Positions 39,705 to 51,677 of a stretch of DNA of 64,000 bases are shown here, in pieces (the first letter of the stretch is position 1; each line of letters starts with the position of its first letter). The stretch lies in the NCBI RefSeq assembly GCF_011174705.1, contig NZ_JAANIJ010000001.1, positions 3,100,001 to 3,164,000 on the forward strand, given 5' to 3'. Origin of the DNA: Tessaracoccus coleopterorum (GTDB lineage: Bacteria > Actinomycetota > Actinomycetes > Propionibacteriales > Propionibacteriaceae). Position numbers and translations under genes: made by a program. The notes beneath the pieces were generated by a model. That model was not told where the DNA came from and ran no database searches. It worked only from the letters and a program-made list of their open reading frames with translations.

Positions 39705-40416
39705 ATGACCAGGCACCAAATCCGCGACGCCGCCGGCGTGGCCCTGTACCGGCACGAGGCCGTCGCCGCGGTGCTCCAGGTGCGCCGCGTCGACGATGCC
39801 GAGCGGCTCTGCGTGCTGGTCGCGCGCCGCGACGGCGAGCCGTTCGCCGGCAGCTACGCGTTGCCGAGCGGCGCCGTCGAGCCGGGGAGAGCATCGATGA
39901 GGCCGCGCTCAGGCATCTGGCTCAGAAGGTCGACGTGGCAGGCCTGACGCATCTCGAGCAGCTGGGCACCCGGTCCGACCCCGGAAGGGACCCGGCGCAG
40001 CGCACCATTGCGACCGTCTACCTGGGGCTGGTGCCCACCATGAGCGACCCGGAGCTCCCGGAACACGCGACGTGGAGCCCCGTGGACCGACTTCGGAGGC
40101 TGGCGTTCGACCACGATCACGTGGTCGCCGACGCGGTCGAGCGGCTCCGCGGGAAGCTGAGCTACACGAACCTCGGATTTGCCCTGATGCCTGGCGAGTT
40201 CACCATCGCCGAACTCCGCGACGCCTACGTCGCGGCCCTGGGACGTGAGGTCGCTCCCACCAATCTCCAACGGGTGCTCACCAGGCGCGGCCAGCTGGTG
40301 GCAACCGGCGAGTTGACCCCTGCCGGGGCGAGGGCGGGCGGCCCGCCCGCCGTTTCCGGTTCCGCGACCGTCACCTCGTGGTGACCGATCCCTTCGCCGT
40401 CCTCCGCCCCGAATGA
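39705..40416 (+). CDS. nrtR: Nudix-related NAD metabolism repressor NrtR
   Basis: NrtR-type repressors have an inactive Nudix domain that senses ADP-ribose and a C-terminal winged helix. Here the Nudix-like part has FAGSYALPSGAVEPGESIDE and VATVYLGLVP-like strands, and the winged helix includes MPGEFTIAELRDAYVAALGR and TNLQRVLTRRGQLVATGEL. The Nudix box lacks the full catalytic glutamate set, as expected of a regulator. It is divergent from nadABC. Single-base losses occur near 39887 and 40340. About 238 residues. An ADP-ribose hydrolase is a less likely alternative. Confidence 0.85.
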
Positions 40417-40421
40417 GACGA

Positions 40422-40437
40422 ACCCGCCGCGGCGGGT
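40422..40437. terminator. Palindrome between converging nrtR and SHOCT genes
   Basis: ACCCGCCGCGGCGGGT is a perfect 16-bp palindrome 5 bases after the nrtR stop, followed by further G/C-rich repeats. It is probably a terminator for one or both converging genes. Confidence 0.5.
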
Positions 40438-40464
40438 GCCGCGACGGGTTCGGGTGCCTGTCGG

Positions 40465-40863
40465 TCAGGCGGAGGCGGGCGTCAGCACCGCCGCCTTCAG
40501 CGCGGCGAACTCCGCCTCGGTGATGGTGCCCGCATCCAGCAGGGCCTTCGCCTTCGTGATCTCGTCGGCTGGGCTGGAGCCGGCCACCTCCCGGATGTAG
40601 GACTCGGCCTGCTCGCGGTTCTGGCGCGCCTCGGCGTCGGCGCGCGCGGACATGGAGTCGCCGCGGGCGATGAGGTAGACGAGCGAGGTCACCAGAGGCA
40701 CGAACACGAGGAACAGGATCCACAGGGCCTTGGCCCAACCCTTCAGGGCCCGGTCGCGGAAAAGATCCGTGATGACAAGCACCAGGGCCACGAGGGAAGC
40801 GATGAACACGAAGGCAGAGAAGAAGACGAGAATGAGGTCCCAGATGGTCTGGAGGAAGGACAT
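40465..40863 (-). CDS. SHOCT-domain membrane protein with PLDc_N-like segment
   Basis: This small protein has two hydrophobic helices (IWDLILVFFSAFVFIASLVA and ALWILFLVFVPLVTSLVYLI) in the arrangement of the PLDc_N domain. A charged stretch follows, and then a C-terminal SHOCT motif (ITKAKALLDAGTITEAEFAA). SHOCT domains are short oligomerisation modules. The frame is intact. The ATG at 40863 gives the common MSFLQTIWDL start; an ATG at 40905 would add 14 residues. It belongs to the cluster linked by the TCATCC-N5-GGATGA motif, one copy of which lies 96 bases upstream. Confidence 0.75.
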   Translation of the reverse strand: MSFLQTIWDLILVFFSAFVFIASLVALVLVITDLFRDRALKGWAKALWILFLVFVPLVTSLVYLIARGDSMSARADAEARQNREQAESYIREVAGSSPADEITKAKALLDAGTITEAEFAALKAAVLTPASA

Positions 40864-40959
40864 GATCGTGTCGCTTTCAGGTAGGTCGGTTGTGTCTGGA
40901 CTCATCCTGAGGCGCGCGGCCGCATGTGGGACAGCCGCCGGCGGTCGGTTGGGCCGAAA

Positions 40960-40976
40960 TCATCCACTATGGATGA
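40960..40976. promoter_or_regulatory. Shared palindrome copy 1, TCATCC-ACTAT-GGATGA
   Basis: The arms TCATCC (40960-40965) and GGATGA (40971-40976) are perfect inverted repeats with five bases between. The copy lies 96 bases before the SHOCT gene start and covers the sulP stop codon. Together with the flanking GAAA it matches the copy at 46569 in 19 of 21 positions. Confidence 0.7.
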
Positions 40977-42628
40977 GCCTCCGGTTGCGAAGGGGCGCGG
41001 AGCGAAGGGCGGCCAACGCCTCGCGGTTCGTGGGGAACAGCTCGATGCCCTCGAGCAGGCCGAACCGCTCGAACCTCTGGCGTAGGCCGGGGCGGAGCCG
41101 CGCCACGGTCAGCGCGATCCCGCGGTCCGTGAGCGAGGCCCGGATGCCGTGGAACGCCTCGGCACCCGTGACGTCGACGTCGGTGATCCCCTCGGCATCG
41201 AGAACCACCGCCCGTAGGTCGTTCCCGTGGCCGTCCACCACGCGCTCGACGGCGGACGTGAGCGCCGAGGCATTGCCGAAGAAGATCGGGGCCGAGAAAC
41301 GCAGCACGACGATTCCGTCGGTCACGGCGAAGTCCCCGCCCGTGGCCGTCGTCACCGATGCGCCCGGATCCATCGGCTCCTCGAGAAACTCGACGGCCGG
41401 GGAGCCTGCGCGGCGCACCAGGTTGATCAGTGACAGGACGAAGGCCAGCAGCAGGCCGCTGATCGGTCCCAGCACGAGGACGCCGAGCAGGCATACGAGG
41501 GCCACCGCAAGCTCGGAGCGGGACTGGCGGGCGATGGTGGCCAGTTCGTCGATGCCCAACAGCTTCAGCACCGCCACCGCCACCACCGCGCCGATGGCTG
41601 GCATCGGGATCGGTTCGAGCAGCGCCGTGCCGACGAGCAGCAGCAGGAGGGTGCCGGCTGCCAGCACGAGGCTCGGCAACTGGGTGCGGGACCCGACCTG
41701 ATCCATGGCCGCCGTGCGTGACGTGGACGAGCCCACCGCAAACGACATCGAGAACCCGGCCGTGACGTTGGCGGCTCCGAACGCCAGCAGGTCACGGTCC
41801 GGAGAGACCCGGTACCCGCGCTTGGCCCCGTAGGACTGCGAGATCAGCACGCCCTCGGCCGTTGCGACCAGCGCGAGGGCCAGGGCGGAGGGCACCAGCG
41901 AGAGCCACTGCTCGAGCGCCAGCGATGGCACGGCCATCCGCGGCAGCCCCGCGGGCACCTCGCCGAGCACCGCGATCCCCGCCGACTCCAGCTTGAACAC
42001 CACGGTCGCGACCGTCGTGAGCACCAGCACGATGAGAGCCGCGGGCGCCGCCGGGGCGAACCTGCGACCAGCCAGCAGCACCGCGAGCGCGGCAGCCGCC
42101 ATCGCTGCCGAGGCGACGGACGTCTGCCCCAGGTGGGTCACCAGCGTGAAGAGCCTGGGGAAGAACTCCTCGTCACTGGGGAGGCGGATTCCCAGCATCT
42201 TGGCCACCTGGCTGAGCAGCACCTCGAGCGCGAGCCCGCCCACGAACCCGACGAGAATGGGGCGCGAGAGGAAATTCGCGAGCGCGCCGAGCTTCAACAC
42301 CGAGGCGGCCACCAGAAACAGCCCACACAGGATCGCCTGGGCGGCGGCCATGGCCGCGAAGTTGTCACCGGCAACACCCAGGGCGGTCAACGACGAGAAC
42401 ACCAGCGCCGCGGCGGCCGCGTCCGGGACGCGACGACCTGACGCGACGAGACGAGCAGCGCGTAGACGATGGTGGGCACGATCAGGGCCGCGAGGCCGGC
42501 GGTGACGGGCAGACCGGCGATCTGCGCGTAGCCGATGTTCAGGGCACCGAGATGGCAAGGAGCGTGACGCCCGCCAGCGCCTCCCTCGCAAAGTTGTCGG
42601 CCCTCAGGCCTGGGAGGAGTCTGCCCAT
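40960..42628 (-). CDS. SulP-family anion transporter with STAS domain
   Basis: SulP proteins transport sulfate, bicarbonate or other anions. The N-terminal AGVTLLAISVPLNIGYAQIAG, the FLSRPILVGFVGGLALEVLL segment and the SSTSRTAAMDQVGSRTQLPS region are family signatures. About twelve membrane segments precede a C-terminal STAS domain (about residues 425-540, IVVLRFSAPIFFGNASALTS and LDAEGITDVDVTGAEAF). Two or three single-base losses near the N-terminal end (42430, 42441 and 42542) restore the frame. About 557 residues. The anion is undetermined. It is divergent from the LuxR gene. Confidence 0.88.
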
Positions 42629-42723
42629 TTCACCAGCTCTCTTTCGGCCGGTGCGGGCCCGTCCGCGCACCAGTCCCAACCTTGAAGCCCCGATGGGCGC
42701 GAGTCCAGCACAGCGGGGTGATC

Positions 42724-42740
42724 TCATCCGAATCTGATGA
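42724..42740. promoter_or_regulatory. Shared palindrome copy 2, TCATCC-GAATC-TGATGA
   Basis: TCATCC (42724-42729) and TGATGA (42735-42740) keep the five-base spacing of copy 1 with one arm mismatch. The site lies 95 bases before sulP and 60 bases before luxR, in their shared 172-base promoter region, which is otherwise featureless. Confidence 0.6.
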
Positions 42741-42800
42741 GCCGCAGGCGGCCCATGTCATCACTACGATGACCAGCGTGGTCGAACTAACCGAGCTGCT

Positions 42801-45395
42801 GTGGATCCAGTCGCCGTGGTTTCTCACGTTTCCCCCGAGACGGGCGCAAGGACCCCGGCCCGTGCCCGGCTGCTCGGGAGGCTGGACGACGCTGTGGGCG
42901 CGTCCACGGTGACGGTCGTGGCCGCCCCGTCCGGGTTCGACAAGACCACGCTGCTGTCGGCGTGGGCGGTGGGCCGCCCCGGCCACACCGCGTGGCTCAC
43001 CCTCACCCAGCACGACCGCGACGACCAGGACCTCATCCTCGCGGGCATCGCCAGCGCGCTCTCGCGGGTGGAGACCGGGGCGGATGAAGGGCCGCCGTCA
43101 CCGCGGGTGAGCTGGGGGTGGGGACGGGCGCATCACGATCAGCCGCATCGTCGCCGCCGTCGCGGCGCTGGGCGAGGTCGTGGTCGTGATAGACGACGCG
43201 CAGCACGGGGAAGGATCCCCGCTTCAGGGTGATCGACGTCCTCGTGGCGCTGGCGGGTGGGCGGCTGCGGTTCATCGTCGCCGGAGCACCGGTGGTGGCC
43301 TCCTGGTTCGCGGGAGCCCTTGCCGGACGGCACGCGACCTTGATCACGGCCGGTGAACTCGCCATGACGGCGGACGAGGTCGCAGATGAGTACGCCAACT
43401 GGGGAGAGCAGCTGAACGCCACGGACGCGGCAGCGGTCGCTGCCTCGAGCCACGGATGGCCGGTGGCCGTGCGGCTTCAGCGGCTCTCCGGTGGCACGAG
43501 GCGGGTGGGGTCACCGTCACCCGGCGACCGGGAGGCGGGGAGGGACCCGACGACCTGCTCACGGCCTACATCGCCAATTACGTTCTCGCGCCCCTGCGTG
43601 CGGAACTCGCCGACTTTGTCCTCGCGGCCACCACCAGTTCCTTCCTGACGGCCGACCTCGCCAATGCCCTGACCGGGGAACGGACGCCTCCGAGCTGCTG
43701 CCTGAGGCCCTCGAGGTCGGCCTGTTCCTGGACCGCTACCGTGACGCGACGGGCAGGCTGGTCTACCGCTGGAATGAACAGTTCGCGAGCTCGTGTCGCG
43801 CGCTGCTCGCCGACTCCGATGCAGGTAGGGCGCGCGAACTGCACTCCAGGGCGGCGAGATGGTTGTCGACCGTGGTGCCCGTGCAGGCGATCGCACACGC
43901 CCTGGAGTCGGGTGACGACGATCTCGCACTGGAGATCATCCGCGACCAGTGGATCCGGATCGTCACCGAGACCGGAGCCCGGGCGTTGAACGCGCAGTGC
44001 CTGACCCTCCCGTCGCGCTGGCCCGGCACCCCGACATCCTGTTCATCCGTGCGGCCTGTCTGCACCTGCTCGACGACAACCTCGGTGCGCGCCTGCTGCG
44101 GAGCCAGGCATACGCGGCCGGGGTGAGGGACCCGACTGCCGGGACACGCGCACGTTCACCTCGCTGATGGTCTTGGAGGACCACGCGGCCCTCAGCGCGG
44201 CCGCCGATGAGGCGAGGGCCATCATCGGGTTCGGCAGGACCGACCCGGTGATGAACGCCTACCGACTCTTCCTGCTCGGATGGGTCGAGGTGCGGCTGCG
44301 GCGTGACCTCGCGACGGCCGTGCAACTCCTTCGGGCCGCCTCGGGGAGGCGGCCGCTGCCGGGCGTGACGTGCTCGCCCGCCGCGCGGCGGGAAACCTGC
44401 TGTTGGCGCTCAGCTACGGCGGCCGGTTCGCCTCCGCCCGCCAACTCCTCGAAGGGCACCCGCCGAGGACCCGGAGGACGACTGGCACCGCTACGACGGT
44501 GGCATCGCCGCCTTCGCCAGCGGGTTGACCGACTACTGGCAGGGGCGGCAGGAGTCGGCGCAGAGGACCTTCCAGGCGTTGGCCGACACGGCGGGACACG
44601 GGGCGTCATACTCCGCGTTGGCCCGCGTCTTCGTCGCCTTCTGCGCCGCCGACCAGGGCTCGCCCGAGGCGGTCCAGTCCGCGCGGGGGCTGCTGGCCGG
44701 GGTCAGCTCCGAGGAGGCGCAGGGCGTCCCGTGGCCCGCCTACCGCGCCATCGCCGAGGCCAGGCTCCTTGCGGCCTCGGGGAACCTGAGGCGGCGTTCG
44801 CCGTCATCGACGCCCTGGCCGAGGCCCCGACATCCCGGTGGTGCGCGCGATGGCCGCCGAACTGCTGCGCAGCGGCGGACGGCTTGCCGATGCGGCCCGT
44901 CAGTTGCGTGGCATCGCGCCGTCAGGCATGCAACTGTCCTACGTCGCGGCCGGCGCGACCCTGACGGCCGCGCTCATCGCGCACCAGCACGGCGACCACG
45001 AGCGCGCGCACGAACTGCTCGAGCGGTCGCTGGATGCGGGCGTCCCGGAGGGGGTGGTGCAGCCGTACCGGTCGCGCGATCCGCGCCTGAGGGAACTGCT
45101 GGCGGCGCACGCGGCGTGGGGGACGGGTCATGGCGCGTTCGTCGCGGCCCAGGTCGCGGCGCTCGATGAGACCCGCGGCGCGACGCCCGGCCTCGGGGAG
45201 CCTCTCTCGGCACGCGAGCGGGAGGTCTTCGGCTTTCTCCGCACGAGCATGACGGCCCAGGAGATCGCCGACGCCCTGTTCGTCTCCGTGAACACGGTGC
45301 GCACCCACCAGCGGGCCATCTACCGCAAGCTGGGCGTGCCAGGCCGCCGTGAGGCGGCGAGGCTCCGACCGCAGGGCTGGTTTCCTCCGCGCTAG
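42801..45395 (+). CDS. Large MalT-like LuxR-family transcriptional regulator
   Basis: This regulator of about 865 residues has an N-terminal NTPase domain, a long helical repeat region and a C-terminal LuxR helix-turn-helix. The P-loop reads VAAPSGFDKTTLLSAWA, with Asp where the usual MalT-type loop has Gly; the Walker B aspartates are in VVVIDDAQHG. The HTH is LSAREREVFGFLRTSMTAQE through VSVNTVRTHQRAIYRKLGV. Members are signal-gated activators. Many single-base losses occur (near 43110, 43205, 43505, 43680, 44010, 44135, 44345, 44465, 44793 and 44828). Its stop shares CTAG with the converging herA gene. It is the probable regulator of the surrounding cluster. Confidence 0.85.
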
Positions 45396-46478
45396 TCGCC
45401 GGAGCGCAAAGGCACCCGCACGTCACCACCGGCCTCCTCCGTGAGGCGGGCCCCATCTGGACGAAGGTGGGCTCGGCGATGAACCCGCCCGCGAACAGGG
45501 CCTGACCCTGTGCGAAGCCCGGGGCGCGGGCGATGTTGTGTTCGCCCGCGAAGCCGAAGATGTTGCCGAGCTCCACGAGATCGCGGGGTGCGTTGACGCG
45601 CATCAGCCCCAGGTTGTCGCATTGGGAGAGCACGTTGGGGTGGATCTTCGTCGGCCGCTGGGTCGAGAGGAAGAGCCACAGCCCGAACTTACGGCCCTCC
45701 GCCGCGATCTGCACGAGCTGCTCGGTGAGGGCCCGCTCGACCGCGGTGCGCGGTTCGGGTGAGCAGAGGTTGTGCGCCTCATCGATGACGATGAGGATCG
45801 GGCGTCGCTCCTCGCGCCGCGCCCACAGGTGCTCCAGCACCGCCAGGGCTGCGACCTTCGGCTCGGCGGGGTGCGGGAAACCGCCCAGATCCAGCACCGT
45901 GGCTCGGGGCGCTCGTCGATGATGTCGGTGACGGAGTCGTCCCGAAGGACCACAGATCCCAGTCGAGCACCTGCAGGTTGTCGATGCGGTTGGCCAGCGC
46001 CGCCATCGCGGGCTGCCCGAGGCACGCAGCGTGGCGAGGACCTCGGCGCCGTCGAAGGTGGCCGGGTCGTTCTCGCCGTGAACGAGCACGTTGTACTCCT
46101 CGGCGTCCAGGACCGGGTCGAGCTGCAGGAGAGCTGCCTTGGAGGCGGGGAGAGATCCGTGTACCGGGCGCGCAGGCGCTCCCCGGTGGAGGCCTTCCCC
46201 GAGCGGAGGACACGGATGTCGACCTCCGCCAACCGGGCCGCGTCCTCCGGGCCGGCGGTGGGGCGGGTCTCGGCAAGGCGCACGAAGTCGCCGTTCGGGT
46301 CCAGGATCAGCATCGGCAACTCAGTGTGGAGCAGCAACTGCTCAAGGATCACGCCGAGGGCGTAGGTCTTGCCACTGCCGCTCTGCCCACACCAGAAGGT
46401 GTGCCGGTTGAACCTGCGCGCGTCAAGGCGCGCCGCGTCGGCCCCGCCCAACGTCGTCCCGATGGTGAACTCGGTCAT
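45392..46478 (-). CDS. HerA-like P-loop ATPase (DUF87)
   Basis: This HerA/FtsK-superfamily ATPase has an N-terminal short beta region, the Walker A WCGQSGSGKTYALGVILEQL near residue 35 and a Walker B IVIDEAHNLCSPE near residue 225. The sensor-like LFLSTQRPTKIHPNVLSQCD and GNIFGFAGEHNIARAPGF come after. HerA-like proteins pump or translocate DNA, but solitary actinobacterial forms have no set role. No NurA, Sir2 or other nuclease partner adjoins it. AGAGAGGAC precedes the ATG at 46478. Single-base losses occur near 45452, 45905, 45945, 46018 and 46150. About 363 residues. Its promoter region is shared with the DUF1254 operon. Confidence 0.82.
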
Positions 46479-46568
46479 CAGCCGTCCTCTCATGCACCGG
46501 CGACGTCGGCCGCCTGGGACACAAGTCAAGCAGGCGACGGCCTCCGGGCGCAGGCCCGGCGCCGGAAA

Positions 46569-46585
46569 TCATGCACTCTGGATGA
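46569..46585. promoter_or_regulatory. Shared palindrome copy 3, TCATGC-ACTCT-GGATGA
   Basis: TCATGC (46569-46574) and GGATGA (46580-46585) keep the five-base spacing with one arm mismatch. The site lies 90 bases before herA and 57 bases before the first DUF1254 gene, in their shared promoter region. The distances almost equal those of the other copies. Confidence 0.65.
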
Positions 46586-46642
46586 TGCGCAGTGACGGGC
46601 CCGGGAACCATCATGGTCCAGCCACCACAGAAAGGCGTGCAG

Positions 46643-47581
46643 ATGAACGCTCCCAATCCCGTCACCTTTGCGAACTTCGTCCGAGCTGAGAGTGAGCGCA
46701 TGTTCGCCGGTATCGCGGCAGCCGCCGCCCCAACGAGTGGAGCCACTTCAGGGTCCCGACGCCGGTGGAGCAGCAGACGGTGATCAGGATGAACCGGGAC
46801 ACGCTGTACAGCGCCGTCATCCTCGACATCTCGGAGGGCGGCACGATCACGCTTCCGGACGCCGGATCCCGCTACCTGTCGGTGATGCTGGTCAACCTCG
46901 ACCACTACATCCCCGCGTACTCCACGCCGGTGGCACGTATGAGCTGACCGCCGAGGAGATCGGGAGCGACTACGTGATGGCCACGGCCCGCCTCCTCGTG
47001 GACCCGGAGGATGCCGACGATGTCGCGGCCGTCAACGCGCTCCAGGACCAGTTCAGGGCCCACTCGGTTGCCGGCCGGGCGTTCCAGCCACAGGACTTCG
47101 ATCAGGAGTCCCTCGCCGCCGTGCGCGCCCCGCTGATCGAACTGGCCCGCGGCCTGGACGGGCTCGCCGGGTGCTTCGGAACCCGGGACCAGGTCGAACC
47201 GATCCGCCACCTGCTCGGTTCGGCCTCCGCCTGGGTGGGCTCCCCGAGGAGGAGGCCTACTACATCAACGTCGACCCCGGTCTGCCGACGGGCAGCTACG
47301 AGTTGGCCGTGCGGGACGTCCCCGTCGACGGGTTCTGGTCCATCACCGTCTACAACGCCGAGGGATACGTCGTGCCCAACGCGACCGGCGCCTACAGCAT
47401 CAACAACATCACAGGCGTCCGCGAGCCCGACGGATCGATCATCGTCCGCTTCGGCGGCGACCCGGAGCGCCCGAACGCCCTTCCGATCACCGACGGCTGG
47501 AACTACCTTGTGCGTATGTACCGGCCACGCCCCGAGGTGCTCGACGGCACCTGGAACTTCCCGACCCTTGGAGACAACTGA
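46643..47581 (+). CDS. DUF1254/DUF1214 protein (first copy)
   Basis: This protein of about 314 residues joins an N-terminal DUF1254-like part (RMNRDTLYSAVILDISEGG, TITLPDAGSRYLSVMLVNLD) to a C-terminal DUF1214 part (VPVDGFWSITVYNAEGYVVP, INNITGVREPDGSIIVRFGG). Such proteins are beta-rich and common in actinobacteria and proteobacteria; their biochemical activity is not established. No clear signal peptide is seen here. AAGGCGTG stands before the ATG. Single-base losses occur near 46728, 46932 and 47240. It starts the operon DUF1254, DUF6325-like, SHOCT, GAP, DUF1254. Confidence 0.8.
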
Positions 47582-47582
47582 G

Positions 47583-48019
47583 ATGGATGACACCTACACG
47601 TTCGGACCGGTCGAGTTCTTCGTCATCGAGTTCGTGGGCGACGGACCCGATCCCGCCGTCCTGGCGAGCCTGGCCGAGCTGAGCGCGGCAGGCACAGTGC
47701 GCGTGCTCGACCTCGTCACCGCCGTCCGCGGCCCGGAAGGCGACGTGGTCATGACGGAGCTCGCCCAGACCTCGGCGGCCACCGCGTTACCGGACCTCGC
47801 CTTCAGGGGACTCGTGGCAGAAGAAGACCTGGTCGAGATGCTCACCGGGGCGCCCCAGGGGTCCGGAGTGGCCATCGCGGCCCTCGAACTGCTCTGGGCC
47901 ACTGAACTGGCCGCCCGCGTCGCGGCCGCTCAGGGCCGGGTCGTGCGCTCCGAGCGCATCCCCGCCCGCTGATCAATGAACTGCTCGCGGCCGCCACCGC
48001 GCTGGAAGAGGAGAACTGA
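47583..48019 (+). CDS. DUF6325-like protein
   Basis: This small acidic protein of about 145 residues has the layout of the DUF6325 family: YTFGPVEFFVIEFVGDGPDP, then GTVRVLDLVTAVRGPEGDVV, a Gly-rich middle and a C-terminal helix ending ELLAAATALEEEN. Members are probable cytoplasmic proteins of unknown function that tend to lie beside SHOCT-domain genes, as here. One base is missing near 47965 (CCC for CCCC); without it the frame stops early at 47972. The ATG is one base after the DUF1254 stop and the next ATG is one base after its own stop, so the genes are tightly coupled. Confidence 0.65.
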
Positions 48020-48020
48020 C

Positions 48021-48343
48021 ATGGTGTTCATCGCACGGGGAGGACGCCCGGGGCTGCTCGGCATGGCGGCGCGCACCGCCGTCGTCGCAGGCACCGCCAC
48101 GGCCGTCAGCGGGGCCGTCGCACGCCGCCAGAGCGATCGTGCCTACGATCACGCCGCCGCGCAGGCCGCGCAGGTCCCGCAGCCCGCAGCCGAGCCGGCC
48201 CAGGCGGTGGCCCCGGTCGCCGCGCCCGCTGCGCCGGCCGGCGACATCGTCTCGCGCCTGCAGCAGCTCGGCGCCCTGCAGCAGCAGGGCCTCATCACCG
48301 CCGAGGAGTTCGCCCTCGCGAAGCAGCAGTTGCTGGGGGCTGA
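48021..48343 (+). CDS. SHOCT-domain protein
   Basis: This protein of about 107 residues has a small hydrophobic N-terminal segment (MAARTAVVAGTATAVSGAVA), an Ala/Pro-rich linker (PQPAAEPAQAVAPVAAPAAP) and a C-terminal SHOCT motif (VSRLQQLGALQQQGLITAEE, then FALAKQQLL). One base is missing in the G run at 48335-48339. Restoring it creates the TGA at 48341, separating this gene from the GAP-family gene that otherwise appears fused. SHOCT modules mediate oligomerisation; two such proteins exist in this cluster, which suggests partner proteins at the membrane. Confidence 0.7.
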
Positions 48344-48347
48344 CCGG

Positions 48348-49021
48348 GTGCTTGAGATTCTGGGGGCCGTGCTGCCCAACGCCGTCGCCATCGCCATCAG
48401 CCCGGTTCCTATCATCGCGGTCATCCTGATGCTCATGTCCCCGCGGCCGGTGCAACTCGGCCTCGGCTTCCTCGTCGGCTGGTTCGTCGGCATCGTCGTG
48501 GCCGTGACGGCGTTCACGCTGCTGGCCGGGGTGATCCCGGAACCGGCCGAGACAGGGAGGGTCAGCCCGTCATCGGCGTCATCCAGCTCGTCCTCGGCGT
48601 GGCGTTGCTGGCGCTCGCCGTCAGACAATGGCGCGGCAGACCCGAGGCCGGGACCGAGCCACAACTGCCGGCCTGGATGTCGAAGATCGACACGATGGGA
48701 CTGCCCGCGGCCGTCGGCCTCGCGTTCGCGCTGGCCGCCGTCAACCCCAAGAACCTCCTCGTCTCCGCCGCCGCCGGAAGCACGATCGGTCGTTCCGGGG
48801 TCGAGACCGCTACCGCGATTGCCATCGGTGCGGTCTTCACGGTCATCGCGGCGCTCAGCGTCGCCGTCCCCGTCGTCCTCGCCCTGGCCGCACCCGCCAA
48901 GGCCGCAACCGCCCTGGCGGCACTGCGCACCTGGCTCACCATCAACAACGCCACCATCATGGCGGTCGTCATGGCCCTGCTCGGCGCACAGGTCATCGGC
49001 AAGGGCCTCGGAAGCTTCTGA
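48348..49021 (+). CDS. GAP-family (Sap) membrane protein
   Basis: This is a six-helix membrane protein of the GAP/Sap family, known in mycobacteria for roles in moving surface glycolipids such as sulfolipid or glycopeptidolipid. Seen are VLPNAVAIAISPVPIIAVIL at the N terminus, FLVGWFVGIVVAVTAFTLLA, LAAVNPKNLLVSAAAGSTIG and the final IMAVVMALLGAQVIGKGLG. The GTG start at 48348 (MLEILGAV) follows the repaired SHOCT stop by 4 bases. One base is missing near 48555 (GGGA for GGGGA). About 225 residues is normal. Lipid export is an inference from relatives. Confidence 0.8.
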
Positions 49022-49059
49022 CCCGGTCCCCTCCCAGATCCCAGCGAAAGGAACACCGC

Positions 49060-50393
49060 ATGCTCCCGGAACCACCCACCGGCCTGCCGGAGGCCTACAC
49101 CTTCGGCTTCCCGCTCGTGTTCAACCTCGACCAGGTCAACCGCTACGTCTCCGAGGGCGTCGGGGCCAACCCCGCGGCGCCCTTCAACCGGTTCAGCCAC
49201 GCCCGCACGCTGGCGGGGCCCGAGGACACCTTCGTGTCCATCAACAACGACACCCTCTACTCGATGGCCCAGATCGACCTGAGCGTCGGGCCGGTGTTGT
49301 TGTCGACCCCGGACACCGGCGGGCGCTACTACGTGCTGCAGTTTGTCGACGCATGGACCAACAACTTCGCCTACGTCGGCCACCGCGCCACGGGCACCTC
49401 CGCCCAGCGGTTCCTGCTCGTGCCGCCAGGGTGGGAAGGCAGCGCACCCGAGGGCGTGCGCGTGATCAAGGCACCCACCTCTGTCTTCTCGATCGTCGGG
49501 CGCTGGGCGTGCACCGGCGTCGACGATCTTCCCGCCGTCCACGCCCTGCAGGACGCGGCCACCCTCACCCCGCTGGATGGGGATGCGGTGGGCGCGGGCA
49601 TCCCGGTGCCCGACGCTCGGGTGTCGGAGGACCTGCTGTTCCTGGAGAAGCTGCGGCTCTGGTCGCAGGCATTCCCGCCGGCGCCGAGCGACGCGACGGC
49701 GCTGGCGGCGCTCGCACCGCTGGGTGCCGCGACGGCCGGGGAGAGCCCTACGTAGGCGTCGATCCGGCGGTGGCGCAGGGCTGGGGTGCCGCGCTCGACG
49801 GCGCACGGGGTGCCCTGCTCGAGTTGCTGCGCACCGGCATGGTGCCCATCGTCAACGGGTGGCAGCTGCCCTTCCACGCCTTCGACTACAACACCGACTT
49901 CTTCGAGGTCGGCGCCCTCGACGCGCCCGCCTACACATCCGTGCCCGCGGAGTTGAAGTACGTGACCCGTGCGGCCGCGGCCATGGGCGGGTTGTGGGGA
50001 AACCACGCCTATGAGGCGGTCTACGCGCCCACCTACGTCGACGCGGACGGCGAGCAGCTCGACGGCGGCAACGCGTACACGCTCACGCTGAACCCCACCC
50101 CGCCCGCCGGTGCGTTCTGGTCGCTGACCATGTACTCGGTGCCGGAGTTCTTCCTCGTGGCCAACGACGCCGGACGCTACTCGATCGGAAGCAACACCCC
50201 GGGCATCATCTGTGGCGACGACGGCTCCCTGACCATCCACATGAGTGCCGCCGAGCCGGCCGATCCACAGGCCCGGGCGAACTGGCTTCCGGCGCCGGAC
50301 GGCCCGTTCCGCCCGATGCTGCGCGTGTACGAGCCCGACGAGTCGATCGTCGACGGGCGCTATGAGCTGCCCGCCGTCGTGCGCGTCCGGTAG
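49060..50393 (+). CDS. DUF1254/DUF1214 protein (second, longer copy)
   Basis: This full-length DUF1254-DUF1214 protein has about 445 residues. The N-terminal DUF1254 domain shows PEAYTFGFPLVFNLDQVNRY, FVSINNDTLYSMAQIDLSVG and GGRYYVLQFVDAWTNNFAYV; the C-terminal DUF1214 shows TPPAGAFWSLTMYSVPEFFL and YSIGSNTPGIICGDDGSLTI. It is related to but longer than the copy at 46643. No signal peptide is seen. CGAAAGGA precedes the ATG. One base is missing near 49740 (GGGGA for GGGGGA). It is the last gene of the operon and converges with the MFS gene. Activity is unknown. Confidence 0.85.
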
Positions 50394-50396
50394 GCC

Positions 50397-51677
50397 TCAC
50401 GCGGCCGCATGCTCCTCTGCGACCTCGTCGGCGGCGGGTTCCCGCAGCTCGTGCTCGTCGACGAGGCGCTGAGGAACCCGTGTGCCGACGTAGGCGGTCG
50501 ACGCGAGCATGAGGACGACGACGCCCGCGATCACCACGGGGATGCCGAACAGTTCGGCGATCTGGCCGCCCACGAGCGCGCCCAGCGGCATGGCGCCGAA
50601 GGCGACCACGCGGGCCGCGCCCTGCACCCGGCCGAGCAGGTGCCCGGGCACCATCCGCGGCCGGATCGACCCGCCGATCACGTTGCCCATCACCCCGAAC
50701 AGTCCTGCGCCGAGCAGGAAGCCCATCAGCGACCACAGACCGGGCCAGAACAGTGGGAGCAGGTTCAGCAGCGCATTGACGCCCCAGCAGACCACCACGA
50801 CGTGCATCTCCTTGAACCGCTTGGCCGCGGGTCCGGCCAGCGTGCTGCCGATCACTGCGCCGATGGGCATGGCGATCAGGGCGAGCGACCATGCCTGCGG
50901 GGTGAGCCCTCCGCGGACCCGGGTCCGACCAGCCACAACAGGATGAGCGCGGAGATCGCCGTCCCGCCGAAATTCCAGACGCCGGCCGCGATCAGCATGG
51001 GGCGCAGCACCGGGTGTCGCCACACCGTCGAGACGCCCTCGCGCAGCTCAGCGGTGATGGAGGTGCCGACCTCCGGCTCGGGGCGACGCGCGACGAAGCT
51101 GCCGCGCAGCCCGACCGCGAGCACGATGATCGCGGCAGCCACCACCAGCGCGGGGCCCCGGTAACCCAGGCGGCACCCAGCGCCATCAGGACGCCGGCCA
51201 GCGGCGGGCCGGCGAACCCGTTGGCCACCGACTCGACGGCCAGCAGTTTCGAGTTGGCGCCGCGCAGGTCGACCGCGTCGCGCCCGACCAGCGCGGGTAC
51301 CTGGGCCTGGGCCGCCAGGTCGGTGAACACCTCGGTGACGCCGTAGGCGAACGCGAATGCCACGAGCACCCACGTGCCGAGCAGGTCGAGGGCCGCCAGT
51401 GTGCCCAGGCCGCCGAGGATCACGGCGCGCACGCCGAGCCCTACGAGCATCGTCCTGCGGCGGTCCCACCGGTCGACGAGGACGCCCGCCGGGATGCCGA
51501 ACACGAGCCAGGGGAGCCAGACGGCCGCGGTCAGGGCCCCGATCAGGAGGGGGAGCGGGTCAGTGTGATGGCGATCAGCGGGACGCCGGTCTGCACGATG
51601 CCGTCGGCCAGGTTGGCGAGCCCGACGGCGGACAGGTGGGCGGTGAAGCGGGGGTTGCCGCGGTGGGCCTGTGACAT
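50397..51677 (-). CDS. MFS transporter (multidrug efflux-like)
   Basis: This is a major facilitator protein with about twelve hydrophobic segments. The MFS motif-A-like VLVDRWDRRRTMLVGLGVRA lies between helices 2 and 3, and GVTEVFTDLAAQAQVPALVG and LLGRVQGAARVVAFGAMPLG are typical of the enterobactin/macrolide exporter-like group. GGAGG lies 8 bases before the ATG at 51677. Single-base losses occur near 50921, 51156 and 51556. About 428 residues. It is divergent from an ArsR-type regulator that probably represses it. The substrate is unknown. Confidence 0.85.

Follow-up and report, generated by a model that had tools for sequence, protein, structure and literature searches.

A LAL regulon signature of a known kind at a new SulP/HerA/DUF6325/DUF1254 cluster in Tessaracoccus coleopterorum

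In Actinoplanes sp. SE50/110, the palindrome 5'-TCATCC-5nt-GGATGA-3' is reported to overlap the -35 element at 17 start sites of a 51-gene region, named the 'maltose-regulated large genomic region', which deletion and overexpression transcriptomics showed to be activated by a MalT-like LAL (ACSP50_3915; Droste et al. 2020, PMC7567727). The same paper reports the motif from other Micromonosporaceae, describes an arginine deiminase operon within the Actinoplanes region that its four other genomes lack, and cites GGGGA[T/G]GAGG as the box of Escherichia coli MalT. Here, we analyze a 64,000-nucleotide stretch of Tessaracoccus coleopterorum (the window; NCBI RefSeq assembly GCF_011174705.1, contig NZ_JAANIJ010000001.1, positions 3,100,001 to 3,164,000), in which three copies of this palindrome, designated sites 1–3, lie in a cluster of genes for SHOCT, SulP, LuxR, HerA, DUF6325, and DUF1254 proteins (Table 1). 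The regulon signature is real and of a known kind, attached to a new cluster, and spread far more widely than reported in PMC7567727, and the palindrome very probably serves as operator for the MalT-like LAL activator that the cluster itself encodes. A first-pass annotation of the window had considered the regulon undescribed, which does not stand for a motif and regulator type published in 2020 (PMC7567727); no description beyond that paper was found in the open literature searched.

A repeated palindrome at the cluster

All three palindromes share a spacer of 5 bases and lie where the first-pass annotation had placed them, and sites 1 and 3 agree, as it had also noted, at 19 of 21 bases with flanks included. 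Its distances from palindrome to start codon hold for SHOCT (96 bases, ATG 40863), sulP (95 bases, ATG 42628), herA (90 bases, ATG 46478), and the DUF1254 operon (57 bases, ATG 46643). The T. coleopterorum genome (3.59 Mb; listed completeness, 61%) contains four exact places of TCATSC-N5-KGATGA, three of them inside the cluster, compared to none for the pattern written backwards at zero mismatches, such that the motif is concentrated at the cluster and not equally common at random positions. The repeated palindrome is thereby confirmed as real and above chance (scan-corrected estimate, ~1e-5, for a pattern itself fitted to the same three sites); because of this fitting, the tests in relatives are the stronger ones. 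Allowing one mismatch yields 56 + 57 strand matches in the genome (backwards control, 16 + 14), and loose searches, whether in the window or at one mismatch in the genome, were discarded as sole evidence for being too noisy. A similar palindrome, TCATCA-N5-[GT]GATGA, occurs outside the cluster in two congeners and in T. coleopterorum itself (L092:10042, L093:9891, L094:6760) and is possibly the site of another regulator.

Spacer and promoter spacing in relatives

DUF6325 (PF19850) was found in 6 of 97 genomes of the family and 48 of 396 genomes of the phylum. Two sets of loci were chosen without regard to the motif: stretches around DUF6325 genes (36 loci, one of them that of the window; 670,606 bases) and HerA loci from the best 80 of at least 157 relatives (1,545,324 bases). 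The half-sites in relatives are TCAYCC/GGRTGA, and when the spacer was varied from 0 to 15 bases, 27 of the 32 palindromes in the DUF6325 loci had a spacer of 5 (0–1 at every other length), as did 26 of 40 in the HerA loci (0–3 at other lengths). A site with at most one mismatch was present within 300 bases upstream of 11 of the 35 DUF6325 genes, compared to 2.7% of control windows, and an exact site is held by 12 of these 35 loci and by 18 of the 80 HerA loci. Conservation in relatives, including that of the spacer, is thus borne out, and the absence that would have spoken against the regulon was not observed. Sites are mostly intergenic (34/53, by a crude gene caller) and often combine one T half and one C half (56/89). 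A paralogue code, with TCATCC for the window LAL and TCACCC for two other LALs of the genome, was abandoned as other LAL loci mix both halves, and asymmetric sites showed no significant rule of orientation (25 vs 14, p = 0.11).

Much of the gene set recurs in two Leucobacter loci (L221, L210), a Cellulomonas metagenome-assembled genome (L222), Leifsonia poae (L187), Microbacterium (L191), Okibacterium (L193), L100, and L104. A site lies between divergent sulP and LAL units, like site 2, in L210 and L222, and with one mismatch in L221. Elsewhere, sites precede DUF6325 (L100, L102, L104, L112, L114, L187, L222), SHOCT (L191, L193), or SfLAP (L187), HerA genes too are found behind sites, and a DUF1254/DUF1214 gene stands at a site in L307, as at site 3. 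On the scale of genomes with unmatched sizes, TCAYCC-N5-GGRTGA has 150 places in 53 DUF6325-positive genomes (backwards control, 6) and 57 in 50 DUF6325-negative genomes picked from tables (backwards control, 8), and the excess in the latter implies that the palindrome has uses beyond this gene set.

The distance from the site to the promoter is similarly constrained (offsets count from the motif end to the first base of the -10; the window's own sites are left out of the counts for relatives). The pattern xAxxxT occurred at offset 23/24 on at least one side of 68 of 89 distinct sites, compared to 1–14 of 89 for other offset pairs and 1 of 24 palindromes with other spacers. Likewise, TANNNT began at offsets 22–24 in 20 of 24 matches (offsets 1–54, 104 sides) and in 15 of 18 matches from 20 further stretches, which were picked for sites and partly overlap the first set. 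A -10 fixed at offset 23/24 is the arrangement expected of an activator that binds at -35, and fits the distance between motif end and transcription start reported for Actinoplanes (34.4 ± 1.0 nt; PMC7567727). A composite pattern with a TATA-like -10 had 19 places in 17 of the 396 genomes (backwards control, 4) and none in T. coleopterorum; 10 of the 17 genomes were DUF6325-positive (p = 2.8e-6) and 7 of the 19 places fell within 10 kb of a DUF6325 gene.

Table 1. Palindromes, presumed -10 elements, and genes of the cluster, in window coordinates.
Feature	Position	Strand	Sequence	Remarks
Site 1	40960-40976		TCATCCACTATGGATGA	TCATCC-N5-GGATGA, exact; overlaps 3' end of sulP frame, ahead of SHOCT
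Site 2	42724-42740		TCATCCGAATCTGATGA	TCATCC-N5-TGATGA, one base off; between sulP and luxR
Site 3	46569-46585		TCATGCACTCTGGATGA	TCATGC-N5-GGATGA, one base off; between herA and DUF1254 operon
Presumed -10, luxR side	42765-42770	+	TACGAT	offset 25 from site 2
Presumed -10, DUF1254 side	46609-46614	+	CATCAT	offset 24 from site 3
SHOCT / PLDc_N small membrane protein	40465-40863	-		
sulP anion transporter with STAS domain	40960-42628	-		5' end frameshifted
luxR, MalT-like LAL regulator	42769-45395	+		probable start; GerE domain; several broken frames; collinear tblastn of intact LALs
HerA/DUF87-type ATPase	45392-46478	-		frameshifted
First DUF1254/DUF1214 protein	46643-47581	+		frameshifted; DUF1214 match at 47294-47530
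DUF6325 protein	47583-47972	+		PF19850, E 6.6e-15
SHOCT plus SfLAP (GAP family) membrane protein(s)	48021-49021	+		frame broken near 48350
Second DUF1254/DUF1214 protein	49060-50393	+		frameshifted; PF06742, E 7.6e-32

The cluster's LAL and other candidate binders

The intact LAL proteins of L221 and L210 align collinearly over 42831-45377 (tblastn), across several broken frames, and the window luxR is also collinear with the LAL proteins of L222 and L100. The L222 LAL matches the MalT structure PDB 8bob (E 2.5e-20), and one LAL each from L100 and L222 matches the MalT model below its cut-off. The open frame at 42568-42912 reads MTSVVELTELLWIQSPWFLTFPP, much as intact homologues in L210, L221, and L222 begin, so the luxR start is probably ATG 42769 or GTG 42778, placing it 28 or 37 bases behind site 2; the 60 bases given by the first-pass annotation rest on GTG 42801, which is probably not the start. 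The luxR frame breaks after the likely start region. A shorter second palindrome, TCATC-N5-GATGA (42758-42772), overlaps the likely luxR start and the presumed -10. Frameshifts are numerous throughout 40400-50500, where luxR, sulP, herA, and both DUF1254 genes are broken, which fits the listed completeness of the genome. A fold model of the DUF6325 protein (mean predicted local distance difference test score, 83) had no match in PDB at E <= 0.001, and no paper on DUF6325 was found in the open literature searched.

Motif and LAL genes occur together. An exact site was present in 14 of 17 loci with a LAL compared to 16 of 98 loci without (p = 1.7e-7; 35 DUF6325 and 80 HerA loci, own locus excluded). 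Outside the window, the T. coleopterorum genome holds three exact TCAYCC-N5-GGRTGA places, and two of these are no more than 3.5 kb from a further LAL gene (p about 2e-4, for a test devised after the fact). One precedes a second LAL of the genome (C1:998325-1001270) by 3.2 kb, and one follows a third (C1:1911629-1914377) at 1.7 kb; around the remaining place, C1:1236842, the fetched stretch contains no LAL. At the second and third LAL (L316:5373-13271, L317:6893-13474), sites of the TCACCC type are accompanied by a DUF1269 gene, a SHOCT protein, and CitMHS-type transporters. In congener G500, the second LAL is retained together with a DUF1269 gene, and a two-mismatch site there is followed by CACAAT at offset 24. 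By comparison of sequences, then, the site, its 5-base spacer, the fixed -10 distance in relatives, and the link to LAL genes are established. Together with the Actinoplanes genetics (PMC7567727), the association between loci and within the genome makes it likely, as first proposed, that the large LuxR protein is the binder of one regulon.

The LAL belongs to the ATP-dependent regulators of the STAND type and has a LuxR-type (GerE) domain for binding DNA. In response to some inducer, it would bind as a dimer or multimer to a TCAYCC-N5-GGRTGA site that overlaps the -35 and ends ~23 nt ahead of the -10, and would recruit RNA polymerase to its own gene and to target units. Binding by the window LuxR protein and activation, as opposed to repression, in this cluster are expected on these grounds, and control may be predicted to extend to the minus-strand genes SHOCT, sulP, and herA.

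Several observations weigh against this reading. In the window, a -10 is found near the expected place only on the luxR and DUF1254 sides, the luxR one at offset 25 and not 23/24; there is none at the conserved distance toward SHOCT, sulP, or herA, nor any at offset 22–25 on either side of site 1, so that the proposal that every gene of the cluster can be reached from a site does not hold as a shown fact. Matches with two mismatches number 24 in the window against 14.2 expected, a count reached by 4 of 100 shuffles, and since this is barely above the shuffles, loose matches tell little. The P-loop of the window LAL (about 42930-42945) has GFDKT in place of the GYGKT or GFGKT of relatives, either a true change or a sequencing error. 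Among relatives, 23 of 35 DUF6325 loci and 62 of 80 HerA loci lack an exact site, L221 has just a one-mismatch site despite its full cluster, and L226 and L230 have SulP, SHOCT, SfLAP, and HerA with neither LAL nor exact site. Sixteen loci carry the site yet have no LAL within the fetched stretch. Gel-shift or binding-assay terms were not found in PMC7567727.

These 16 loci, and the DUF6325-negative genomes in which the palindrome exceeds its backwards control, could instead be explained if the sites were operators of some other, unseen regulator travelling with the same genes, the LAL being a mere passenger. We consider this unlikely, as the LAL association holds within and between genomes and agrees with the Actinoplanes genetics (PMC7567727), and the LAL can lie elsewhere in the genome of a locus that appears to lack one. 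BldM, a response regulator, also has a LuxR-type DNA-binding domain. The Group I sites of BldM, TCACcC-N4-GgGTGA, share the half-site (PMC4125116), such that a BldM-like (NarL/FixJ-type) response regulator could be the binder in place of the LAL; the spacer of these sites is one base shorter, with 0 and 2 palindromes of spacer 4 in DUF6325 and HerA loci compared to 27 and 26 at spacer 5, the motif follows LAL genes across loci, and in Actinoplanes the N5 motif is tied to a MalT-like LAL (PMC7567727). BldM was rejected as binder on spacer length, and a regulator of its type is highly improbable. A reading of the palindromes as products of chance or as structural repeats (terminators, codon-level coincidences) is hardly tenable and for the motif as a class already refuted, since both the spacer and the distance to the -10 keep to narrow values even between distant loci, although site 1 overlaps the sulP frame end and loose window matches hardly exceed shuffles.

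Target genes and comparison with known systems

With the LAL taken as the binder, the candidate target families (64 proteins scanned; first 25 of 58 families) adjoining sites include DUF6325, HerA, MalT-like LuxR, Abhydrolase_9, AI-2E family, DUF7144, DUF2252, SUMF1-type, SulP, DUF1269, ion channel, PLDc_N, and MFS proteins. SfLAP, sulfatase, trehalase-like GH15, and DUF1254 are also beside sites, as is a glutamate decarboxylase in L108. A protein of ~470–520 residues, weakly like DUF4337, recurs in many loci, often behind a site (L100:2996-4450, L121:2800-4200, L104:6722-8278). To our knowledge, roles have yet to be assigned to most LAL regulators and to the majority of these DUF families. 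Palindrome, 5-base spacer, and -10 at offset 23/24 form a portable signature with which regulon members can be listed in any actinobacterial genome, allowing one regulator–operator pair to be examined for many uncharacterised genes together.

The glutamate decarboxylase, with the arginine deiminase operon of Actinoplanes (PMC7567727), suggests a possible role of the regulon in pH. More tentatively, and with rather less than even confidence, one operator grammar (TCAYCC-N5-GGRTGA, 22–23 nt, -10) may serve many LALs across the Actinomycetota, including paralogues in one genome, and mark a phylum-wide envelope/transport/stress set (DUF6325, DUF1254, DUF7144, DUF2252, DUF1269, SHOCT, SfLAP, SulP, AI-2E family, HerA, SUMF1-type/sulfatase, glutamate decarboxylase). 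That set, again with the arginine deiminase operon, could constitute a pH or anion-stress response. What the present analysis adds to PMC7567727 is the SulP/HerA/DUF6325/DUF1254 cluster, the occurrence of the motif far outside the family named in that paper, the TCACCC form of the half-site, and, in T. coleopterorum, a further two LAL loci that carry sites.

Of the known systems, BldM Group I of Streptomyces has the same half-site (TCACCC/GGGTGA) but a 4-base spacer and an atypical response regulator, not a LAL (PMC4125116); unlike TCACCC-N4-GGGTGA, the sites in the window have a spacer of N5. Escherichia coli MalT shares the LAL/STAND architecture and the half-site core GGATGA but acts on a repeated hexamer at mal genes; each site here is instead a lone inverted pair whose halves are always 5 bases apart, and at this cluster neither the repeated GGGGAKGAGG boxes of an E. 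coli-type maltose regulon nor a mal gene among the annotated genes was found. The Actinoplanes MalT regulon is the closest (PMC7567727). The window has its operator (exact at site 1), its spacer of 5 (3/3), and a regulator of the same type encoded inside the cluster; both have many genes annotated without function and no maltose-metabolism genes. The overlap of the operator with the -35 in Actinoplanes is matched in relatives by a -10 ~23 nt behind the site (68/89), and in the window by the -10 at offset 24 from site 3 and, less closely, at offset 25 from site 2, with none on the three minus-strand sides. They differ in size, with 51 genes in Actinoplanes and about nine in the window cluster, and, among the genes compared by name, in content (arginine deiminase operon, amino acid permeases, and peptidases vs SulP/HerA/DUF6325/DUF1254), making the window cluster a small, tractable counterpart of the 51-gene Actinoplanes region.

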